40,671 nucleotides of DNA, taken from NCBI GenBank assembly GCA_009783855.1, contig WRCO01000010.1:1-40671 (forward strand), read 5' to 3'. This document shows, piece after piece, positions 7,813 through 34,736 of this stretch. This DNA comes from Alphaproteobacteria bacterium. GTDB taxonomy: Bacteria > Pseudomonadota > Alphaproteobacteria > Rs-D84. The position numbers and the translations under genes were made by a program. The notes under the pieces are model-generated. The model was not told the origin of the DNA. It made no database searches and worked only from the letters and a program-made list of their open reading frames with translations. Numbering within the stretch: the first letter of the stretch is position 1; each line of letters begins with the position of its first letter.

Positions 7813-7880
7813 AGTGGCTGGTGGCTTGTGCCGGTGACTTGTGACTTTATACCAGCCACCGGTCACCGGCACCAACCACT
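7813..7880. repeat. GGTGGCT-type inverted element between rpoB and rpoC
   Basis: AGTGGCTGGTGGCTTGTGCC and, at the other end, ACCGGCACCAACCACT form inverted heptamer arms that fill the rpoB-rpoC gap. The right arm overlaps the rpoB stop codon. Confidence 0.75.
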
Positions 7881-10800
7881 AATCGATTTTCTTCGGCGTC
7901 ATGGCAAGGCCAAGACCGCGCAATTCGCGCATAAAGACGTTGAACGCTTCGGGCGTTCCGGTCTGTATGTCGGTGCTGCCGGAAATCACGGCTTCGTACA
8001 TTTTGTTGCGACCCGTGATGTCGTCGGATTTGACGGTAAGCATTTCTTTAAGAAGATGCGCCGCGCCGTGCGCTTCCAACGCCCAGACTTCCATTTCGCC
8101 GAAACGCTGGCCGCCGTTGTGCGCTTTTCCGGACAGCGGCTGCTGTGTGACAAGCGAATACGACCCGACGGAACGCGCGTGGATTTTTTCGTCCACAAAG
8201 TGATGCAGTTTAAGCATGTGCATGATACCGACCGTCACGGGACGTCTGAAAGGTTCGCCCGTCATTCCGTCGATAAGCGTAACCTGACCCGTTTCGGGAA
8301 GCTTTGCCATTTTAAGCATCTTGCTTACGTCGTCGATGGTCGCGCCGTCGAATGTGGGCGACGCCATCGGCACGCCGTCGCGGACAAGCGCCGCGGCCGC
8401 GCGGACATCCGTGTCGGTCATTTTTTCAAGGGCGCCCGCGATGTCTTTGCCGTATATCTTGGACATCTGCGTGCGAAGGTCGTCGGTCACGGCGCGCTTG
8501 TTTTTAATTTCGTCCAGCGTCCGGCCAATCTGGTGCCCCAATTCGCGCGCGGCGGCGCCAAGGTGGACTTCCAAAATCTGACCCACATTCATACGCGACG
8601 GCACGCCAAGCGGGTTAAGAACGATGTCGACCGGCGTTCCGTCTTCCATGTGCGGCATGTCTTCGATTGGAACAACCTTTGACACGATGCCTTTGTTTCC
8701 GTGGCGGCCGGCCATTTTGTCGCCCGGCTGTAATTTCATCTTGTGGGCGATATATACCTTTACCTCTTTCAGCACGCCCGCGTTAAGCGAATTGCTTTCG
8801 CGAACTTTGTTGATTCCGTGGTCGGCTTTGTCGTTAAGTTCTTTAAGGATGAACAGATGTCCGTCGCGGATTTCGTCGATTTTCGCCTGAACCTCTGCGT
8901 TTTTCAGGACAAGTTTTTTGACATCGGCCGGGCGGATTGCTTCGGCGATTTCTTCGGAAAGCTTTTTTCCGATAAACGGTTTTATCGAACCGGTGCCGTT
9001 TGTTATAACCTGTCCCTCTGCCAATTGGAAAACCTGATGAGCGAATCCGCGCTCCATGATGGCGGTTTCTTCTTCGCGGTTTTTATTGATGGCGTCTATT
9101 TTTTGAAGCTCGATTAACTGCGTGCGTTCGTCTTTTTTGACACCGTGGCGGGTAAGGACGTTGACGCCGATGACGACGCCTTCTTCGTTGGGCCCGACGC
9201 GAAGCGATGTGTCTTTAACCGAAAGCGCCTTTTCGCCGAAGATATTGCGAAGAAGCGATTCTTCCGGTGTAAGCAGGGTTTCGGATTTCGGGCTTACGCG
9301 GCCGACAAGTATGTCGCCCTGTTTCACGTGCGCGCCGATATATATGATTCCGGATTCGTCCAGGTTTTTAAGAGCCTCTTCGGACACGTTCGGAATATCG
9401 CGCGTGAATGATTCCGGCCCCAATTGGGTATCGCGGACCTTGAATTCCTTTTCGACGATTTTGATGGACGTGAAAACGTCGCCCTGTGAAATGCGTTCCG
9501 AAATCACGATAGAGTCTTCATAGTTATATCCGCGCCACGGCACGAACGCGACCATGACGTTCTTGCCAAGCGCGACTTCGCCGTAACTTGTCGACGCGCC
9601 GTCGGCGATGATGTCGCCGGCATGCACGCGGTCACCCACTTTGACAAGCGGTTTTTGATGAATAAGCGTTTCGGAATTCGAGCGGCCGAATTTTTCAAGA
9701 TTGTACACATCGACACCCGATACGACGTTGCGGGAATTCATGCGTTTCACCACAATGCGGTTTGCGTCGACGGATTCGACGACGCCCGAATGCCTTGCGA
9801 TTTTCACGCTGCGCGAATCGCGCGCGACTTCGCGTTCGATGCCGGTTCCGATAATGGGCGCTTCGGCGCGCAGAAGCGGCACACCCTGTCGCTGCATATT
9901 GGAACCCATAAGCGCGCGGCTTGCGTCGTCGTTTTCGACAAACGGGATAAGCCCGGTCGCAATTGATACAATCTGGCGCGGCGCGACGTCGATAAGAGTC
10001 ACTTCTTCGCGCGGTATCACCGTGAATTCGCCGTCGACGCGGGCGGTGACCATTTCTTCGGAAAGCGTTCCGGCGGACGTTGTCGGGGTGTTGCCCTGGG
10101 CGATTTTGTGACCGACTTCTTCATCCGCGGTAAGATAGACTATATCCTCCGTGATTTTGCTGTTCTTCACGACATAATACGGCGTTTCGATAAATCCGTA
10201 CGGATTGACGCGCGCATAAGACGACAATTGCGTGATAAGCCCGATATTCGGACCTTCGGGCGTATGCACCGGACAAAGGCGGCCGTAATGGGTCGGATGA
10301 ACGTCGCGAACGTCGATGCCGGCGCGGTCGCGGTTAAGTCCGCCGGGGCCAAGCGCGGACACGCGGCGCTTGTGTTCTAATTCGGCAAGCGGGTTGTACG
10401 CGTCCATAAATTGCGACAGCGGCGACGTTCCGAAGAATTCGGAAATAAGCGCCATCATCGGCTTTGCGTTTATGGTGTCCTGCGGCTTCATATTGACGAT
10501 GTTCGGACTGGACAAGTTTTCGCGCACAAGGCGTTCGATGCGGACCATTCCGATACGGAACTGTTGTTCCAACAATTCGCCGACAACGCGGACGCGGCGG
10601 TTTGAAAGATTGTCGATATCGTCGACAATATCCTTGTTGTCGATGATATTGGCAAGCGTCTGCAAAGTCGCGATGACGTCTTGTTTGGTAAGCACGCGTT
10701 CGTCTTCCGGACGTTTTCCGGATTCGATTTTAAGGCGCTTGTTCATCTTGAAACGACCGACCGCGGACAGGTCGTAATAAGTCGGGTCGAACCCCTGATG

Positions 10801-12174: not shown

Positions 12175-12193
12175 GGGCAAATGATATTTGCCC
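12175..12193. repeat. GGGCAAAT hairpin repeat
   Basis: GGGCAAAT-GAT-ATTTGCCC, a perfect 8-base stem followed by CCTACA. It belongs to the same family as the hairpins at 29137-29187 and 31808-31862. Confidence 0.65.
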
Positions 12194-12231
12194 CTACACA
12201 AACCAATAATCAAAACCGTCCCGGATGCGAC

Positions 12232-12421: not shown

Positions 12422-12787
12422 CTATTTCACTTCAACCTTCGCGCCTGCTTCTTCAAGTTTTGCTTTCAATGCGTCCGCCTCTTCTTTCGATACGCCTTCT
12501 TTCACCGCTTTGGGTGCGGATTCGACGAACGCTTTCGCTTCGCCAAGCCCAAGTCCCGTCGCGTCTTTCACAACCTTGATAACGCCAAGCTTGTTCGCCC
12601 CGGCGTCGGCCAAGATAACGTCGAATTCCGTCTTTTCTTCGGCGGCGGCGGCGGCCGGTCCCGCGGCAACAGCCACAGCGGCAGCAGCGGACACGCCCCA
12701 CGCTTCTTCCAAAGCTTTGGACAATTCAACCGCTTCCAGAACGGAAAGTTTTGACAGTTCGTCTACTATTTTTTTTATATCAGCCAT
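12422..12787 (-). CDS. rplL: 50S ribosomal protein L7/L12
   Basis: L7/L12 forms the flexible stalk of the large ribosomal subunit that recruits translation GTPases. The 121-residue protein has the N-terminal dimerisation helices, an Ala/Pro-rich hinge near residues 34-50, and the conserved C-terminal globular domain ([12 protein letters not shown] and [12 protein letters not shown]). The start at 12787 has a GAGAGGT binding site. It follows rplJ after a 90-base gap containing a repeat. Confidence 0.97.
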
Positions 12788-15747: not shown

Positions 15748-15821
15748 TGGCAGGGGCGGAAGGAATCGAACCCTCACCAAAGGTTTTGGAGACCTCTATT
15801 CTACCGTTGAACTACGCCCCT
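15748..15821 (-). tRNA. tRNA-Trp (anticodon CCA)
   Basis: On the minus strand the acceptor stem AGGGGCG/CGCCCCT is followed by the discriminator G and an encoded CCA. The anticodon loop reads CTCCAAA, giving anticodon CCA, and the T-loop contains GGTTCGATTCC. At 74 nucleotides with CCA it is complete. A tRNA-Trp just ahead of secE is a conserved bacterial arrangement. Confidence 0.96.
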
Positions 15822-15943
15822 ATTCCATTGTTTTTACTTGATTCCACATCTAATATACCCCGTGATGCCCGCGTACGATACCACACTATTTCGTAAAATC
15901 AAGCGGAAAGTGGAGTGCAGTGTACTGTATTTTCGGCAAGTGA

Positions 15944-16025
15944 TGCAAGGGAAAAATGGTGGCTGGTGACTGATAAATATTACGAACCGCCAACCACCGG
16001 CACCAGCCACCATTTTTCCCTTGCA
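15944..16025. repeat. Long perfect inverted repeat with GGTGGCT core
   Basis: Positions 15944-15968 and 16001-16025 are exact reverse complements over 25 bases; the loop is 32 bases. The inner half of each arm is the GGTGGCT heptamer unit; the outer half (TGCAAGGGAAAAA) is specific to this copy. The right arm supplies TTGCA of the putative -35 box of the following virB8-like gene. Confidence 0.8.
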
Positions 16026-16050
16026 CCGCCCTTTGTTTTTCTTCTAATAT
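16021..16050 (+). promoter_or_regulatory. Putative promoter of the virB8-9-10 operon
   Basis: TTGCAC at 16021-16026, an 18-base spacer and TAATAT at 16045-16050 lie just before the first start codon. The -35 box overlaps the end of the 25-base inverted repeat. Confidence 0.45.
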
Positions 16051-16078
16051 GCCCACTGCAGAGGGGGAAAAGGAGAAA

Positions 16079-16771
16079 ATGAAGACCATCGAACCGCCGG
16101 CATTAATGTCAAGAATCATAACTTTTGTTTTCGCGGGCGCTCTTGCGACGACGATTGTTTTGGCCGTGACTTTGGCCAATCTTATGCCGCTTCACAGGAC
16201 CCAGGTTTTCTTCCTTACCACCCAGCTTCGCGAAAACACGGTCGTTCGTCTTGAATCGTTTTCCGTTTCGGAATCAAACATCGGAATTTACAAGGAAAAT
16301 TTCATCAAAGAATACATCCGGATGCGGAATGAAATTGTCCCCGCTATCTCTGCAATGCACACGCGGTGGGGTCGCGGACCCGGCGGACTTGTCAATCTTT
16401 GGTCAAGCAACGCGGTCTTTGCGGACTTCATGGACACAAGCATGTGGATTGCGATAATGAACGCGGACGAAGATACCGGATGGCGGTGCCGGGTTGAATT
16501 CACAAGACCTATCCAGCCATATCGCATTGCCGCCCAAAACGACGAAAGACAATTGTCGGAACACCGCGTAAGTTTTCGCTATTTTTGCGCCGATAATACT
16601 GGACAGACCGACCCGGAAGATTATACAATCGTCATAGGAATCGAATTTCAGCCGGCGATAAGATGGTTCGACCGGTTGGAAAATCCGCTTGGTCTTATCG
16701 TGTCAGAGTACCGCGTAGAAGCCGGTCGCCGCGACCCGCTTGACCAATTCGATTTCTTGATAAGAAGGTAA
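16079..16771 (+). CDS. VirB8-like type IV secretion inner-membrane protein
   Basis: VirB8 proteins are bitopic inner-membrane scaffold proteins of type IV secretion systems with a periplasmic NTF2-like domain. The 230-residue protein has a short cytoplasmic tail, one transmembrane helix at about residues 11-33, and a periplasmic domain ending with RWFDRLENPLGLIVSEYRVE, the family's NPxG-type motif. The start at 16079 has AAGGAG 4 bases upstream; 16049 is an alternative without a site. The next gene, a VirB9 homologue, begins 16 bases after its stop, which supports the call. A DotI/IcmL-type member of the same fold is possible but less likely, because the neighbours are VirB9- and VirB10-like. 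Confidence 0.82.
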   Translation: MKTIEPPALMSRIITFVFAGALATTIVLAVTLANLMPLHRTQVFFLTTQLRENTVVRLESFSVSESNIGIYKENFIKEYIRMRNEIVPAISAMHTRWGRGPGGLVNLWSSNAVFADFMDTSMWIAIMNADEDTGWRCRVEFTRPIQPYRIAAQNDERQLSEHRVSFRYFCADNTGQTDPEDYTIVIGIEFQPAIRWFDRLENPLGLIVSEYRVEAGRRDPLDQFDFLIRR

Positions 16772-16787
16772 GGAAAGGAAGATGCTC

Positions 16788-18293
16788 ATGAAAAAAATTA
16801 TGCTGTCTGTTTTGTGTTTGGCGCTTTTTGCGCCTGATGCGCGCGCCAACGTTCAAACCGCATGGAACAATCCGAACGCGAACATGGCGCCGGGCTCTGC
16901 CCGCCCCGGTTTTGCACAGCTTACCTGGTCGCCCGGAACCGTCATGCCGATAAGGCTTCGAAGCGGCATGGTCACGATGATTAATCTTCCCATGGGCGAA
17001 GTTGTCGAAGACGCGACCGTCGGCAATACAGGCTTGTTCCAAGCCGAACTTCAAGGCGGCGGACGCACCATAATGCTTACGCCCGAACCGTCCAATCAGG
17101 GTTCCGACACCAACCTTATCGTTACGGGAAGGTCCGGAAACGTATATCTGTTTTATCTGCGAAGCGAGCCTGCGAATTCGCCGGAAATATCATATTCGAA
17201 AGTGGACATCACTCTTGACGGCAACGCGCACATGCCGATGGCAGGCGGAATGAACGCGCCGCAAACCGGCGGTATGAATTCCTTATTCCCGCGGCGGGGC
17301 GCCGGCGGAGGAGTCGGGGGACTTTCGCCCGCAGGCGAAGATTTCGGATGGATACAGACTATGAAAATCGACCCGTCGGAATTTCGTTTCGACCTTGACA
17401 TATTTGTTCCGAATCCGGACGACTATGTGATTGCGCCGGAGCGCGTGTGGCGCGACCGCATATTCACCTATATCGACTTTGGCGACAAGGTTATCGCGAT
17501 GACACAGCGGCCGGTTGTATCGATACTTATCGAAGGCGGCGAAAGCCCGGTCGGATTCAGAACGGACGGCGAACACGGAAGATTGATAATCGTCGAAGCC
17601 GTCGGCGATATGGTGCTTCGCAGCGGACAGCGTTTGGTATGTATCAAGAAGCGCTCGCGGCCGTTCCTTGTCGCGGACACGGCAAGCGTCATGAGATTGG
17701 CCGAAGCCAACGTGATGCAAAGCATGTTCAGCAACCAGTCGTTGAACAACGTCGTATTTGGCGGAATGCCGATGATGCCCGCTCCGGGTATGGTTGGTCA
17801 TCCGATGATGCCGGGCATGGGCGGCGGAATGCCGATGATGCCGATGCAACCGCAACAGCCGATGATGATGCCGCAACAATTCGCGCCACAGGGCGGCGGC
17901 GGCGGTCGCGGGATGAATATGATTCCACAGGAAAGGACCACTGCGGGCTCGTTCCTTCCGCAAAGCAATATACCGCTGATTCGAAGCAACCAGGTCGGCG
18001 TCGCGGTGGAATTGCGGTCGGACACATCGGTTAAAGCGCTTAACGATTATTGGACGCGCCTGCTTGCGCAGTTCAGCGGGGACGAAGGCGCGGGATTGTT
18101 AAACCCGTACCGTGACATGGTATTCTTCGCGGTCGATGAACAGGGGGTCGGCGATTTGGGCGCATCCGGCAACACGGCGCGCCTGTACCGTTTGCGCATC
18201 GGACCGCTGTCCAACATAGACGAGGCCCAGGTTCTCTGCGACCATCTGCAAAGATTCCGGTCCATCCCATGCCATGTGGTGAGGGTACAATAG
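16788..18293 (+). CDS. VirB9-like T4SS outer-core protein with C-terminal SPOR domain
   Basis: VirB9/TrbG proteins form the periplasmic/outer-membrane core ring with VirB7 and VirB10. The 501-residue protein has a signal peptide (MKKIMLSVLCLALFAPDARA, cut before NV) and a VirB9-like region at about 25-300 (for example VVEDATVGNTGLF and VWRDRIFTYIDFGDK). A Met/Gly/Pro/Gln-rich linker spans about 323-380. From about 400 to the end is a SPOR domain with YRLRIGPLSNIDEAQVLCDHL; SPOR domains bind denuded septal peptidoglycan. I prefer the start at 16788, correctly spaced from AAGGAAG, over 16782. VirB9 normally ends without SPOR, so this is an unusual fusion. Confidence 0.85.
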   Translation: MKKIMLSVLCLALFAPDARANVQTAWNNPNANMAPGSARPGFAQLTWSPGTVMPIRLRSGMVTMINLPMGEVVEDATVGNTGLFQAELQGGGRTIMLTPEPSNQGSDTNLIVTGRSGNVYLFYLRSEPANSPEISYSKVDITLDGNAHMPMAGGMNAPQTGGMNSLFPRRGAGGGVGGLSPAGEDFGWIQTMKIDPSEFRFDLDIFVPNPDDYVIAPERVWRDRIFTYIDFGDKVIAMTQRPVVSILIEGGESPVGFRTDGEHGRLIIVEAVGDMVLRSGQRLVCIKKRSRPFLVADTASVMRLAEANVMQSMFSNQSLNNVVFGGMPMMPAPGMVGHPMMPGMGGGMPMMPMQPQQPMMMPQQFAPQGGGGGRGMNMIPQERTTAGSFLPQSNIPLIRSNQVGVAVELRSDTSVKALNDYWTRLLAQFSGDEGAGLLNPYRDMVFFAVDEQGVGDLGASGNTARLYRLRIGPLSNIDEAQVLCDHLQRFRSIPCHVVRVQ

Positions 18294-18352
18294 TGGTTGG
18301 TGACTGGTGGCTGGTATTTAGCCACAAGCCACCAGCACAAGCCACCAGCACG
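18294..18352. repeat. GGTGGCT-type element between the virB9- and virB10-like genes
   Basis: TGGTTGGTGACTGGTGGCTG faces CACAAGCCACCAGCACAAGC around a GGTATTTAGCC centre. It directly follows the TAG stop of the virB9-like gene and separates the two genes of the operon. Confidence 0.75.
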
Positions 18353-18356
18353 AAAA

Positions 18357-20906
18357 ATGAACAAAATAAAACAAAAGTTCGCCGAATTCAGACAGAGCAC
18401 TCCCATCCATGTGCAGTGGTTGCTTTTGGCGGCCGCGTTTCTTGTTGTATTTATTCTGTTGCTTCTTCTTTTGTCCGGACGGGGCAGTCCGGCTGCCGGC
18501 AACCGCGATGCACAGGTTGCAATACTTTCAATCAACCCTTCAAGGGTTGAATGGCGGAATACTCCCACAGGCGATGCGCGCGAACAAAGAATCGTCGTAT
18601 CGTCAACTGTCGACACTATCATCACAGACGTAAGGATTTCCGGAATCGACGACCCGTCGGCGATTGGTCTGTCGCGCCTGTCTACTTGTGAAAACATGGG
18701 GCGGATTTCGCATAATGTTTCGTGCCGGATTACGTTAAATTGGCGCCCGACCATACCTTTGGACAACACGGACCTTGAAATCCGGATAACATACCACGCG
18801 GCAAGCCAATCGGCGGAAATGGCGAATATGGAGGTTATACCGGTGCTGCTCTCAACACATGGCGGCAGGCTTGTTGCAAACGATAGGGAGGGCACAGAAG
18901 ACTTACAGGATTTTGACAACTTCACAGGCGATGCATTCCTTGACAACATATTCGGCGGCACAGACGACTTTAATAATGACGACGATTGGAATTTCATACC
19001 GCCGTCGTTGAACGATGATTGGGATTTCGACCCGCTGTCATTCCCATTGCCCGCGCCGCTGGAACCTTTGCCGTTTCCCCTTCCCGCGCCAGAACCTATA
19101 TTCACAGGCTTTGCGCCCGCGCCCGTTTTCAACGATTGTCTTGAATTCGCATTTCCGGGATATAATCTTTCGGGCGCGCAAAACGGCTGGATACGGCCAA
19201 GCGCCGGACGCTATCTGTTCCATCCGTTCGGGGACAGCGAATGCACAAATCCGATTGGCGTGTATAACATCAACACCGGCATGATTTCGGACATCGCGAA
19301 TCCCGGAACAATTATCGGAACCGACGCGGACCGTATCGGTCACCGCTCATTTTTTGCAAATAATACGGGGTTGCCCGGCCTTGCGCCAAGTCCGCGGACG
19401 GCGCGTGCGCAAAACCGCGCCGCACCGGCGATGGGTATGCCGGCGGCTCCATTGGCAAGGGGTGGCCGCCTTCGGGATGAAAACGGCAATCCGGTTAACT
19501 TTGGTGCACGGACAACCCGCACTTTCCGACCGACATCCGTACATGCCGACGAACAAGGGTCCGGAAGACACGCCACCATATCAAGCCTTCCGATTGACCG
19601 TACTTTTGTCCTGCGCCAGTACAAGCCGATACCGGCAACCATAGTCAACGAAGTCCGCGCCGACGCCCGCACCATGGGTCCCGGCCCCGGCAATATGGGC
19701 CGCCTGCCGGTTATGGCGACTGTGGACCGCAATGTATTCGCCGACAACGGCCGCACTATCATACTGCCCGCCGGAACACAAATGATGGGGTATGTTACGG
19801 GCGAACTTCCGGGGCCATACCGGACCATTGGCCGGATGCAGATAAACTGGTACCGCTTTATCCGCCCGGATAACGTCGAATTCAATTTTCAACAAAGCGA
19901 CAACCGGCCATTTGCGGCGGACGCCCAGGGTCGCACCGGCGTGCCCGGCCGCGGTTCGACGGATTATATCGAAAGCATGATAATGCCGATGATGACCGCT
20001 TTGGTACCGGCGGCTGTCAACCTTATCGCGCCGATATCGGACCGCTTTGTAAACCAGATAGACCTTGACAACAATACCGTAACCCAAACCGGCACGGTAC
20101 GGTCAAGCGAACTTGCCAAACAAGAAATCATATCGTCATGGAACCAGGTTGTTCAAAGACTGGTCCTTGATATGATGGACAATACCACGCCGCCGTTTTC
20201 GATTGCGGCCGGAACAAGAATCACGGTATTTTCGCCGACGGACCTGGTTGTTACATGCGCGGATGCCGATGCCGACCCCAATGCCGACCCGCGCAGTTGC
20301 GCCATGGTTGCTCCAAATATGGAGTATGCGGATTTTCGCCCGAGCGAAGTGCAATTGGTTGCGAACTTTGACAACGTTTCGGACTGGATGGGTCAGGTGC
20401 GCTCGCTTAACGTAAGGATGGACGGCCTTTGCGAAACAGACTTTAACGGCAACTTTACCGGTCGGCCGGTCACCGACGCACACCGGCTGGCGGCAGAGCG
20501 TGGCATAGATTTCCGCGCGGTTGTCTTCCATTGCCAATCGGGTCAGTTCCAGGCAATGAACAACGTCCGCTGGAACCAGTTCTTTAATCAACAACACCAA
20601 CTGGGCCAAGGCAACCAGGTTGGCATGACGCAAATGCCCGGTCTGCAGCCACAGCAACCAATATTCTCGCCGGAATTCCAACAGAACCAACTGGGGATGC
20701 AGGTGCATCCGGAAACCGGTCTGTTGCTGAACCCGTTTGCTCCGCTTCCGCCGCCGCCGCCCGGACCCGCTGTTCTTCTTTGCGAAGACGGAACGCATCC
20801 GGACTCGAACGGCTGTTGCACCGGCGAAATACTTACCGATATGGGTGATTTGGGGATGAATTGCTGTCCGGTTACCGGCGGCGATTGTTTCCCGCCATTG
20901 CAATAA
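18357..20906 (+). CDS. VirB10-like T4SS core protein with long periplasmic insert and Cys-rich tail
   Basis: VirB10/TrbI proteins span both membranes and link the inner-membrane complex to the outer pore. The 849-residue product has a 20-residue cytoplasmic tail, one transmembrane helix (about 21-40), a beta-rich region to about 150, an Asp/Pro-rich linker (about 178-252), then the VirB10 domain at about 440-640 (TVDRNVFADNGRTIILPAGT, later IAAGTRITVFSPTDLVV). A Gln-rich stretch follows, and the last 45 residues hold a cluster of seven or more Cys (GCCTGEI, NCCPVTGGDC). Typical VirB10 is about 400 residues, so half is extra. The start at 18357 lacks an SD because a repeat sits upstream; translation may use a start inside the repeat (TTG at 18297). 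Confidence 0.82.
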   Translation: MNKIKQKFAEFRQSTPIHVQWLLLAAAFLVVFILLLLLLSGRGSPAAGNRDAQVAILSINPSRVEWRNTPTGDAREQRIVVSSTVDTIITDVRISGIDDPSAIGLSRLSTCENMGRISHNVSCRITLNWRPTIPLDNTDLEIRITYHAASQSAEMANMEVIPVLLSTHGGRLVANDREGTEDLQDFDNFTGDAFLDNIFGGTDDFNNDDDWNFIPPSLNDDWDFDPLSFPLPAPLEPLPFPLPAPEPIFTGFAPAPVFNDCLEFAFPGYNLSGAQNGWIRPSAGRYLFHPFGDSECTNPIGVYNINTGMISDIANPGTIIGTDADRIGHRSFFANNTGLPGLAPSPRTARAQNRAAPAMGMPAAPLARGGRLRDENGNPVNFGARTTRTFRPTSVHADEQGSGRHATISSLPIDRTFVLRQYKPIPATIVNEVRADARTMGPGPGNMGRLPVMATVDRNVFADNGRTIILPAGTQMMGYVTGELPGPYRTIGRMQINWYRFIRPDNVEFNFQQSDNRPFAADAQGRTGVPGRGSTDYIESMIMPMMTALVPAAVNLIAPISDRFVNQIDLDNNTVTQTGTVRSSELAKQEIISSWNQVVQRLVLDMMDNTTPPFSIAAGTRITVFSPTDLVVTCADADADPNADPRSCAMVAPNMEYADFRPSEVQLVANFDNVSDWMGQVRSLNVRMDGLCETDFNGNFTGRPVTDAHRLAAERGIDFRAVVFHCQSGQFQAMNNVRWNQFFNQQHQLGQGNQVGMTQMPGLQPQQPIFSPEFQQNQLGMQVHPETGLLLNPFAPLPPPPPGPAVLLCEDGTHPDSNGCCTGEILTDMGDLGMNCCPVTGGDCFPPLQ

Positions 20907-23080: not shown

Positions 23081-23188
23081 AGCACAGATGGAGCATGAAC
23101 AAATGTTAAAATTAGAAAATAACTTTTTCAGACCTGCAAAAGCATATCTATTATCTGTGCTCTATGCTCTGTGTTCTGTGCTCTTGCT
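23078..23188. repeat. TCTATGC-type inverted heptamer element spanning a start codon
   Basis: An inverted arm at about 23078-23098 (AGAGCACAGATGGAGCAT) faces tandem units TCTGTGC, TCTATGC, TCTGTGT, TCTGTGC at 23154-23181. The element contains the start codon and signal peptide of the following lipoprotein gene. Confidence 0.7.
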
Positions 23189-29123: not shown

Positions 29124-29136
29124 TTTGATAATAATA

Positions 29137-29187
29137 TTGGGGCGAATATCATTCGCCCTTTAACAGGACAAATAATATTTGCCCTGT
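29137..29187. repeat. Two GGGCGAAT/GGACAAAT hairpins
   Basis: GGGCGAAT/ATTCGCCC at 29140-29158 and an ACAGG-x-CAAAT/ATTTG-x-CCTGT hairpin at 29163-29187. They belong to the GTAGGGGC hairpin family. Confidence 0.6.
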
Positions 29188-30068: not shown

Positions 30069-31647
30069 TGATATACATCTGCCCGATGCCAAACACGTTG
30101 GACACTGTCCAGTAAAGCACCAATCCCGCCGGCATAAACGAAAACATCACGGTAAATATGACGGGAAGCCATTTCATCATCTTTTGCATTTGGGCGGCTT
30201 GTTCGCTTGCGCCCGCGGACGCGGCGCCGGCCTGTTGCAATTTCTGTTGAAGCCACATAGTTCCGCCCATAAGTATCGGCAAAAGGAAATAAGGGTCGCG
30301 CGCGGCAAGGTCCGAAATCCAAAGAAAGTCCGCATTCCGCATCGGCACGGAGATAAGCAGAGCCTTGTACAGCGCAAAGAAAATCGGAATCTGTAAAAGC
30401 ATCGGAAGACATCCCCCCATCGGGTTGCCGCCGCCGGAAGTATACAGTTTCATCATTTCCTGTTGCATGCGGGCCTTGTCATGGCCGTATTCTTTTTGTA
30501 TGCGCTGCATTTCCGGTTGAAGTTTTTGCATGTTCGACATTGCGGTGAAAGACTTTTTGGTAAGCGGCCACATAATCATGCGAAGAAGTATGGTAAACAG
30601 GATAATCGCAACGCCGTAATTGCCGACAATCGCGTGAAGCGCGTTAATCGCCCAAAGGAACGGCCGCGCAAGGAACCAGAACCATCCGTAATCAATCGTA
30701 TGGTCTATGCCGGGCATAAAACCGGCGGCGGCGGATAAATCGGATTGATTTTTCGGTCCCGCAAATATATGCGCGGTCCATGTATGCGTTTGCCCGGGCG
30801 CGATGGATTGCATTTCGGCGCCGGCGTCCGCTTGGAACATGCCGTCGCCGCGTCCGCGGATGCGAAGCGTTTTGTCAAAAGCATCCATGCCGACGACGGT
30901 CTGCCAATACTGGTCGGTGAATCCGACAAAACCGGCCGCGGTTGAAAGCGAAAGGGGTCGCCGGGAAAGCGAGCGCCAAGATTCGCGTTCTATCGAACCG
31001 CCCGCGCGGGCGATTCCGCCGACGAACGCGGCGCGCGCGGAGGGTTCAGAGCCCTGACCCCGGACGATGCGGGCGTACCCGCCGATTGCCACCGGAACGG
31101 CGGAATTATTGGTCGCGGTATCGGAAACATTGATGACATAATCGGTGGACATGGTGATTGCGCGCCGGAATTCGACGCCTTCGGGCGATGTCCATGCCAT
31201 ATAGATTCTGTCGCCGCCGATGGCGCGATTAATGCGCCAAAGGGTATCGGGCATCGGCACGCTTGCGCCGGCGCCGGAGAATCCGATTTCCAAAAATTCA
31301 CCGACAGCGGACAGAAGGCGGACATTGCCGTCGTCATTTTCCACATAGTTTTTTAATTCAATCTCTGAAATGCGAATCCCGGCAACCCGTGCGATAATCG
31401 CTTCACCCATAAGCATCTGCGATGGCACTTCCGGCACCGCAACCTGTGCGGGCGCATCATCTATGCTCTTTGCTCTATGCTCTATGCTCTCTTTTCTCGG
31501 CGCGAACCAAGAAAACGCCAACCACCCGGCAAGCACGGCGATAAGCATCCATATAAGCATGCCGCTTGCGCCGGTTTTTTTTTCAGATTCGCGCGCGGCC
31601 ATGAATTGTTGGAACCCGCTTGACCCGCTGTTCATATATTGAACCAT
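30046..31647 (-). CDS. yidC: Membrane protein insertase YidC
   Basis: YidC inserts and folds inner-membrane proteins, alone or with SecYEG. The 533-residue protein has a cytoplasmic N-terminus of about 28 residues, TM1 at about 29-50, a large periplasmic beta-domain (about 75-320) and five C-terminal transmembrane segments in the Oxa1-type core, including the hydrophilic-groove region MIMWPLTKKSF and GCLPMLLQIPIFFALYK. The start at 31647 has AAAGGA upstream. Residues about 53-63 (ESIEHRAKSID) in the linker after TM1 are encoded by TCTATGC heptamers read in antisense, an in-frame repeat insertion in a region that tolerates variation. Confidence 0.96.
   Translation of the reverse strand: MVQYMNSGSSGFQQFMAARESEKKTGASGMLIWMLIAVLAGWLAFSWFAPRKESIEHRAKSIDDAPAQVAVPEVPSQMLMGEAIIARVAGIRISEIELKNYVENDDGNVRLLSAVGEFLEIGFSGAGASVPMPDTLWRINRAIGGDRIYMAWTSPEGVEFRRAITMSTDYVINVSDTATNNSAVPVAIGGYARIVRGQGSEPSARAAFVGGIARAGGSIERESWRSLSRRPLSLSTAAGFVGFTDQYWQTVVGMDAFDKTLRIRGRGDGMFQADAGAEMQSIAPGQTHTWTAHIFAGPKNQSDLSAAAGFMPGIDHTIDYGWFWFLARPFLWAINALHAIVGNYGVAIILFTILLRMIMWPLTKKSFTAMSNMQKLQPEMQRIQKEYGHDKARMQQEMMKLYTSGGGNPMGGCLPMLLQIPIFFALYKALLISVPMRNADFLWISDLAARDPYFLLPILMGGTMWLQQKLQQAGAASAGASEQAAQMQKMMKWLPVIFTVMFSFMPAGLVLYWTVSNVFGIGQMYIIKKRDVS
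31460..31490. repeat. TCTATGC heptamers inside yidC
   Basis: TCTATGC, TCTTTGC, TCTATGC, TCTATGC, TCT: four tandem units, read on the minus strand as a hydrophilic linker of YidC. Confidence 0.75.
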
Positions 31648-31807: not shown

Positions 31808-31862
31808 TGTAGGGGCAAATATCATTTGCCCCATTAAAGGGCGAATGATATTCGCCCCTACA
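31808..31862. repeat. GTAGGGGC nested palindrome
   Basis: TGTAGGGGC at 31808-31816 and GCCCCTACA at 31854-31862 enclose two smaller stems, GGGGCAAAT/ATTTGCCCC and GGGCGAAT/ATTCGCCC. The rest of the gap 31648-31926 shows only a degenerate TCGAAAATATTCGCCC-like unit near 31694 and no gene. Confidence 0.7.
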
Positions 31863-31885
31863 TTTTATGGTTTCCTCCGCCAAAC

Positions 31886-34196: not shown

Positions 34197-34736
34197 TTAT
34201 TTTTTCCTAAATATCCAATGCGCAATGAATACCATAACGCCGGCCGTAATGCAAATATCGGCGAAATTAAACGCGGGCCAATGCCATCCGGCGTAATGAA
34301 AGTCAAGGAAATCAACAACCGCGCCGAACCGGATGCGGTCGACAAGATTCCCAAGCGCGCCGCCGACTATTAACGTAAGCGCGACCCGCTCCCACCGGTC
34401 TTTTGATTTGTACAGCATATGCGCGAAAAATCCGATAATCACGCCGGTGATGACGATTAATGCAAGCGGCGCCGCTTCGCCCAGATTTCGGAATAATGAA
34501 AACGAAGTGCCCGGATTCCACGTGAAGACAAAGTTAAAAAAGCTTGTCACGCGGGACATCAGAAACGGAAACGGCACAATGTCGAACGCCCGCCCGTAAA
34601 GCGGAATTCCGCCGGTCAACAGGTAAAGGAAATACCCCTTTGTGATTTGGTCAACGGCGATAATCAAGAGCATAGAGCATAGGGCATAGAGCATAGATTT
34701 ATCATTAATCGGTTTTATGCGTTTTGTTTCTGTCAT
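34197..34736 (-). CDS. lspA: Lipoprotein signal peptidase (signal peptidase II)
   Basis: LspA cuts the signal peptide of lipoproteins after lipidation, in the inner membrane. The 179-residue protein has four transmembrane helices. The catalytic Asp pair is Asp133 (GNLVDRI) and Asp160 (FNFADI), and the TM1 motif VDQITK is present. The start at 34736 has a strong AGGAGG site. Residues 14-23, SMLYALCSML, part of TM1, are encoded by TCTATGC heptamers. It lies 28 bases after tig on the same strand. Its substrates here include the two lipoproteins at 23103 and 24629. Confidence 0.96.
   Translation of the reverse strand: MTETKRIKPINDKSMLYALCSMLLIIAVDQITKGYFLYLLTGGIPLYGRAFDIVPFPFLMSRVTSFFNFVFTWNPGTSFSLFRNLGEAAPLALIVITGVIIGFFAHMLYKSKDRWERVALTLIVGGALGNLVDRIRFGAVVDFLDFHYAGWHWPAFNFADICITAGVMVFIAHWIFRKK

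Follow-up and report, generated by a model that had tools for sequence, protein, structure and literature searches.

How does a perfect inverted repeat with 25-base arms come to lie across the promoter of a vir-type operon, and does it switch that promoter? The repeat is located in a stretch of DNA of 40,671 nucleotides (hereinafter, the window) that is one entire contig (C10) of a 901 kb alphaproteobacterial draft genome (31 contigs, 93.7% complete). The named relatives are gut Alphaproteobacteria, one of them from sheep rectum, which we take to be those grouped under the order name RF32. The geometry originally predicted for the repeat proved accurate: the two arms (15944-15968 and 16001-16025) are complementary at all 25 of 25 positions around a 32-base loop, and each arm splits into 13 outer bases and a part made of GGTGGCT. 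The relevant features are as follows.

15748-15821, minus strand: tRNA-Trp (cca)
15919-15924, minus strand: candidate -10, TACACT (predicted, weak), 18 bases from TTGCAT
15936-15940, minus strand: GCAAG (CTTGC on the minus strand), at the place of the tRNA-Trp -35 in relatives, 36 bases from the anchor
15943-15948, minus strand: candidate -35, TTGCAT (predicted), for tRNA-Trp/secE/nusG/rpl, supplied by the left arm, 9 bases off the relatives' position
15944-15968, plus strand: left arm; promoter-type part 15944-15956 (13 bases), then 15957-15968 (12 bases) opening the heptamer hairpin
15957-16012, unstranded: GGTGGCT-type heptamer hairpin, one of 16 facing clusters in the host sample
15969-16000, unstranded: loop of 32 bases; leftover imperfect heptamer units and an A/T-rich centre (TAAATA)
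16001-16025, plus strand: right arm; heptamer part 16001-16012, promoter-type part 16013-16025
16021-16026, plus strand: predicted -35 of the VirB8 operon, TTGCAC, spacing kept in 67 of 71 loci
16045-16050, plus strand: predicted -10 of the VirB8 operon, TAATAT, spacer 18
16079-16771, plus strand: VirB8-like gene, opening the vir-type operon (PF04335, 2.1e-08)
16782-18293, plus strand: CagX/VirB9-like gene (PF03524, 8.9e-21)
18297-20906, plus strand: TrbI/VirB10-like open reading frame (PF03743, 1.9e-16)

The repeat occupies the gap separating tRNA-Trp from the VirB8-like start at 16079. To its left, the minus strand encodes tRNA-Trp, SecE, NusG, L1, L7/L12, RpoB and RpoC; to its right, homologues of VirB8, VirB9 and VirB10 follow one another in this order, the arrangement that identifies a type IV secretion (vir-type) operon. 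The nearest relative of the VirB8-like protein is 62% identical, and the real start of the TrbI/VirB10-like frame is probably further in than 18297. One in-frame TGA was observed within the VirB8-like gene match of relative G008 (L036).

Within 280.7 kb of host sequence, comprising the window and 12 stretches of the same genome (hereinafter, the host sample), 50 inverted repeats are perfect over arms of at least 12 bases; the 25-base repeat is the longest of them, and 10 second-order Markov versions of the window contained no perfect inverted repeat longer than 13 bases (loop up to 150). The folded repeat strand yields z = -10.6 both as RNA and as DNA, with 0 of 200 shuffles equalling it in either case. 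The 31-contig draft state of this metagenome-assembled genome brings to mind a fold-back artefact of assembly or library construction; however, the loop is overall not self-complementary, both flanks are conserved with relatives, and similar arms are present in other assemblies (20 bases in G067, 17 bases in G137), so that such an origin appears very unlikely.

Back-to-back promoters at the repeat

The placement of the repeat at a vir operon promoter, with the -35 element in the right arm, was also part of the original prediction and is borne out: the VirB8, CagX/VirB9 and TrbI/VirB10 families match, the spacing between the -35 and -10 elements is conserved with the window included, and the first five bases of TTGCAC are inside the arm. 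This comparison was based on 96 upstream regions, namely, that of one named record (E02 bin305) and those of 95 family genomes, out of the 129 in which VirB8 was matched; the other 34 family genomes (mostly the weakest matches), order-level matches and two named records repeating G146 and G074 were omitted. In 81 of the 96 regions, the VirB8 gene is preceded by an antisense tRNA-Trp, and 71 of these 81 were automatically parsed as GCAAG...CTTGC; removal of one misparsed locus and addition of six of the remaining ten, parsed by hand, produced the set of 76 genomes used for the comparison of arms. The right CTTGC is separated from the TA of the -10 element by 20 bases in 67 of the 71 parsed loci, including the window, and on the left, GCAAG keeps a distance of 36 or 37 bases to the conserved anchor CAAGYGSAA in 68 of the 71. 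The comparison demonstrates that the -35 elements of these predicted back-to-back promoters, each consisting of an A/T tract and CTTGC, are an old imperfect inverted repeat found family-wide.

The outer 13 bases of the window arms are such a -35 region (A/T tract and CTTGC), present in back-to-back copies that are predicted to serve tRNA-Trp, secE, nusG and the ribosomal genes on the minus strand, and the VirB8-like operon on the plus strand. The left arm of the window carries its own GCAAG at 15945, as against the GCAAG at the conserved distance, at 15936, and the minus-side -10 element of the relatives, recognized in 70 of the 71 rows, is absent from the window alone. A simple scan of positions 15750-16150, which requires closer matches to TTGACA, detected neither a terminator nor a consensus promoter, and the tRNA was the sole Rfam match in the window. 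A transcribed hairpin or attenuator was considered and rejected: because the repeat sits between the two predicted -35 elements, it most likely escapes transcription. The vir promoter is expected to remain active, the arms representing its ordinary -35 element and upstream A/T tract, and the hairpin as such is most likely without a regulatory function of its own.

The positions of the -35 elements also bear on the idea, voiced in the original prediction, that a cruciform or an invertible segment switches the promoter, with a recombinase flipping the 32-base loop. The genome does encode one resolvase-type and two phage-integrase-type recombinases, but none of these matches is on the window contig. 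Because each of the two -35 elements is located within an arm or at its edge, outside of the loop, the segment that would be flipped does not contain the promoter, and its inversion would change neither of the two promoters. A loop of 32 bases is, moreover, short for site-specific inversion. Among the spacer pairs of relatives with forward identity of at least 0.82, none aligned better when inverted; over all 1214 pairs, 151 reached an identity of 0.65 in the forward orientation and 81 in the inverted one, which is near chance, the comparison being informative for the closest pairs only. The switch thus finds no support and seems most improbable.

In the proposed search for the outer arm elsewhere, made on the host sample, GCAAGGGAAAAA, that is, the 13 outer bases minus the last one, recurs at two further places, L020 and L027, and is mirrored in neither. 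Both copies are readable as a lone -35 element with a -10 element eighteen bases on (spacing by eye), TTGCCC-18-TATAAT in L020 and TTGCGG-18-TAAAAT in L027; the latter fronts a gene divergent from one that, judging by its sequence, we take to be triosephosphate-isomerase-like. At about 2340-2443 of L020, the promoter-type GCAAGGGAAAAAT has TATAAT eighteen bases from its CTTGC; behind it come heptamers with a different word (AGAGCAT), and a facing partner lies close by. More generally, 8 of the 38 CTTGC occurrences in the host are outside long reading frames (8% of the sequence is outside), as are 15 of the 30 in relatives (14% outside), compared with 2 of 36 and 7 of 63, respectively, for two control words taken together; only the plain CTTGC counts were used, the tally of A/T tract plus CTTGC counting single sites repeatedly.

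Heptamer hairpins in the host and relatives

Between the two promoters, the inner part of the repeat belongs to a hairpin made of GGTGGCT heptamers; this genome contains many such hairpins. The GTG-type heptamer word produced 95 matches in the host sample, against 7 expected, and of its 29 clusters, 16 are facing, 13 single and none diverging. An initial lag-autocorrelation test for period 7 was weak by itself; the 280.7 kb contain 57 period-7 arrays, as against 15 with period 6 and 2 with period 8, the Markov expectation being 0.0 for period 7. Further heptamer words are present in the host, and heptamer hairpins occupy many of its intergenic gaps, with only 22 of the 57 period-7 arrays located beyond the rough gene calls. 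Period-7 arrays are common in the samples from G009 and G006 and rare in other relatives; none were detected in the samples from G067 and G061, although both sites bear heptamer-like repeats. In several relatives, the spacer between the -35 elements holds another repeat word, such as GTTAGTT in G001 or GTGACAG in G012. Period-7 sequence is part of 12 of the 15 long perfect repeats (arms of at least 14 bases, loops of 9-150) of the host and of 7 of the 12 from relatives, compared with 91 of 2000 random places.

Several other occurrences of repeats in the window deserve mention. The TAG stops of rpoB, rplL and the VirB9-like gene (7879-7881, 12422-12424 and 18291-18293) coincide with the opening bases of GGTGGCT-type hairpins (TAGTGG...), which gives the impression that the heptamer element supplies the stop codons of these three genes. 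Heptamers of the GCTCTAT type are found within coding sequence, near the protein N-termini (34666-34698, 23158-23180 and 31460-31493), in the genes for signal peptidase II, an OmpA-type lipoprotein and YidC, where they are read as hydrophobic stretches, for example, MLYALCSMLL; a literature search for such heptamer-coded peptides returned none. There is also a second dispersed, inverted repeat family, GGGGCGAATATCATTCGCCCC-like, at 29133-29184, 31813-31864 and 12175-12198.

The dispersal of heptamer hairpins over many intergenic gaps would fit a mobile element, of the REP or MITE type, that delivered both arms as its terminal repeats. The outer 13 bases, however, are not mirrored around the other hairpins examined and are represented elsewhere in the host sample only by the two single -35-like sites, and the 93.7% complete draft yielded no Y1 (REP-type) transposase, which makes delivery by an element hardly credible.

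Covariation of the arms

One argument for copying between the arms is their likeness within genomes. Over the 12 bases inside CTTGC, arm identity in the 76 genomes is 0.592 within genomes versus 0.499 between genomes, a difference reached in 0 of 20,000 permutations. When each cluster is represented by a single genome, the covariation remains, with a median p of 0.0025 at 25 to 53 clusters and of 0.005 at 11 clusters. At a 60% identity cut, it is not significant (3 clusters, median p 0.34); this spacer clustering was discarded, the cut being within the range of chance identity (median 0.57, 99th percentile 0.68), which is so high that only 3 clusters result. In a block test on 70 genomes, the excess is clear from -14 to 0, weak from -20 to -14 and absent outside of CTTGC; because the excess ends at the arm edge, which is also the promoter edge, general base composition does not explain it.

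Two explanations without copying have to be weighed against these data. One is that the divergent promoters drifted to the same consensus and that the two ends of the heptamer element agree by chance. Indeed, the combination of an A/T tract and CTTGC is a general type of promoter in the host, and the identity of arms from different genomes is already 0.50. Nevertheless, the two free bases preceding CTTGC agree in 28 of the 76 genomes, whereas 11.8 would be expected, the within-genome excess does not extend past the arm edge, and the arm type of the window departs from that of its own VirB8 clade (see below); drift accordingly appears rather doubtful. The other is that both arms are bound by a regulator, dimeric or paired, and are kept alike by selection for co-regulation of the vir and translation genes. 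A symmetric binding site could be the source of the covariation, and symmetry is kept in most relatives; however, relatives differ in the length of the arm-to-arm stretch (52 to 200 bases) and there is therefore no fixed geometry, and the conserved part is the -35 element itself, which is also found singly. We consider such a regulator quite unlikely.

Counted from CTTGC inward, the perfect run is 24 bases in the window (25 with the outer base) and 5 to 20 bases in the other 75 genomes. The inverted repeat is, then, imperfect in relatives and perfect in the window, the pattern by which quasipalindrome correction is recognized. In G001, G003, G004 and G005, the vir-side arm consists of AAAAAA, CC or GC, A or G, and CTTGC. 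The vir-side arm of the window, alone in the sampled VirB8 clade, is the T-tract form TTTTTCCCTTGCA, which mirrors its own left arm; the CCGCC past the repeat edge, common to G001 and G003, is retained. The support for this clade is 88/87, under the mark of the tool. The apparent change from A-tract to T-tract would match the left arm as the template. A-tract right arms are found also beyond the VirB8 clade of the window, in G022 and G116, so that a change of arm type without copying is possible. Taken together, the excess of arm likeness within genomes and the departure of the window from its clade lend support to the suggestion, made originally from the perfect identity of the arms, of recent formation or active correction.

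Proposed copying between the arms and known systems

We propose that the 25-base repeat is probably a corrected quasipalindrome that formed over a divergent promoter pair, was seeded by the heptamer hairpin and had its arms homogenized by template switching, an explanation built on comparison of sequences. During replication, the nascent strand would fold back at the heptamer hairpin and take the opposite arm as its template; with copying running outward, one arm would be overwritten by the other up to the edge, CTTGCA. Such copying would convert the imperfect repeat into the perfect 25-base one and, consequently, replace the A-tract upstream of the vir -35 element with the T-tract of the other promoter. 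The arm type suggests that the right arm was overwritten, that is, that copying went from left to right; the displacement of the left CTTGC, 9 bases off its conserved place, suggests that the left side changed too, perhaps through a 9-base duplication. If this explanation is correct, a short repeat hairpin rewrote part of a promoter by copying its oppositely directed neighbour, and perfect inverted repeats at divergent promoters, readily mistaken for switches, would have a concrete and mundane origin.

A parallel case is found in G006 (L159, 95-259), where a 54-base perfect inverted repeat of GATAGA-type heptamers spans the ends of two convergent reading frames, both of which end in MIRKK-stop. 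Five relatives were searched for orthologues of these frames, and an end was recovered from G018 only: there, the orthologue of one frame ends in WWKIIRKGKK, close to WWKMIRKK in G006, which suggests that this gene was the template of the copied end. It is tempting to speculate, quite tentatively, that heptamer hairpins are recurrent seeds of copying which, at any place between two genes where they come to lie, fold, copy one flank to the other and thereby transplant functional sequence, here a -35 element with its upstream tract and, in G006, a protein C-terminus. Neighbouring genes would then come to share control or tail sequence, and such copying would be a recurrent path of promoter and gene-end evolution in the family.

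Our literature search, which covered few subscription journals, found nothing on heptamer hairpins in gut Alphaproteobacteria or on their arms over promoters, and nothing on the repeat locus in work on RF32. Several known systems are nonetheless comparable. REP sequences and REPINs are likewise dispersed intergenic palindromes but have a fixed sequence of 20-40 bases, in contrast to the tandem 7-base units of the host, in whose draft the Y1 transposase was not detected. The TAACTGA heptamers of Beggiatoaceae and cyanobacteria (PMC4679880) are also numerous intergenic repeats; they are direct and mostly precede start codons, with one inverted case reported, whereas facing pairs of GGTGGCT are common (16 of 29 clusters). 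The GGGAATC heptamers of Xanthomonas (PMC4692102) form intergenic arrays with many facing pairs able to form stem-loops and differ from those in the window in the word and the bacteria. For the copying itself, the counterpart is quasipalindrome correction, in which imperfect arms are made perfect by arm-to-arm copying; template switching between the arms of an inverted repeat homogenizes them and may invert the spacer (PMC8604942). That system consists of yeast coding genes, with spacers of up to 70 bases, whereas here the arms belong to bacterial promoters, the nucleus is a heptamer hairpin, and the case is drawn from species comparison only. More than 70 related genomes share the site, and the process, if correctly proposed, could therefore be traced in nature across the family. 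Arm homogenization and heptamer repeats are each known; what appears to be new is their combination over a promoter pair.
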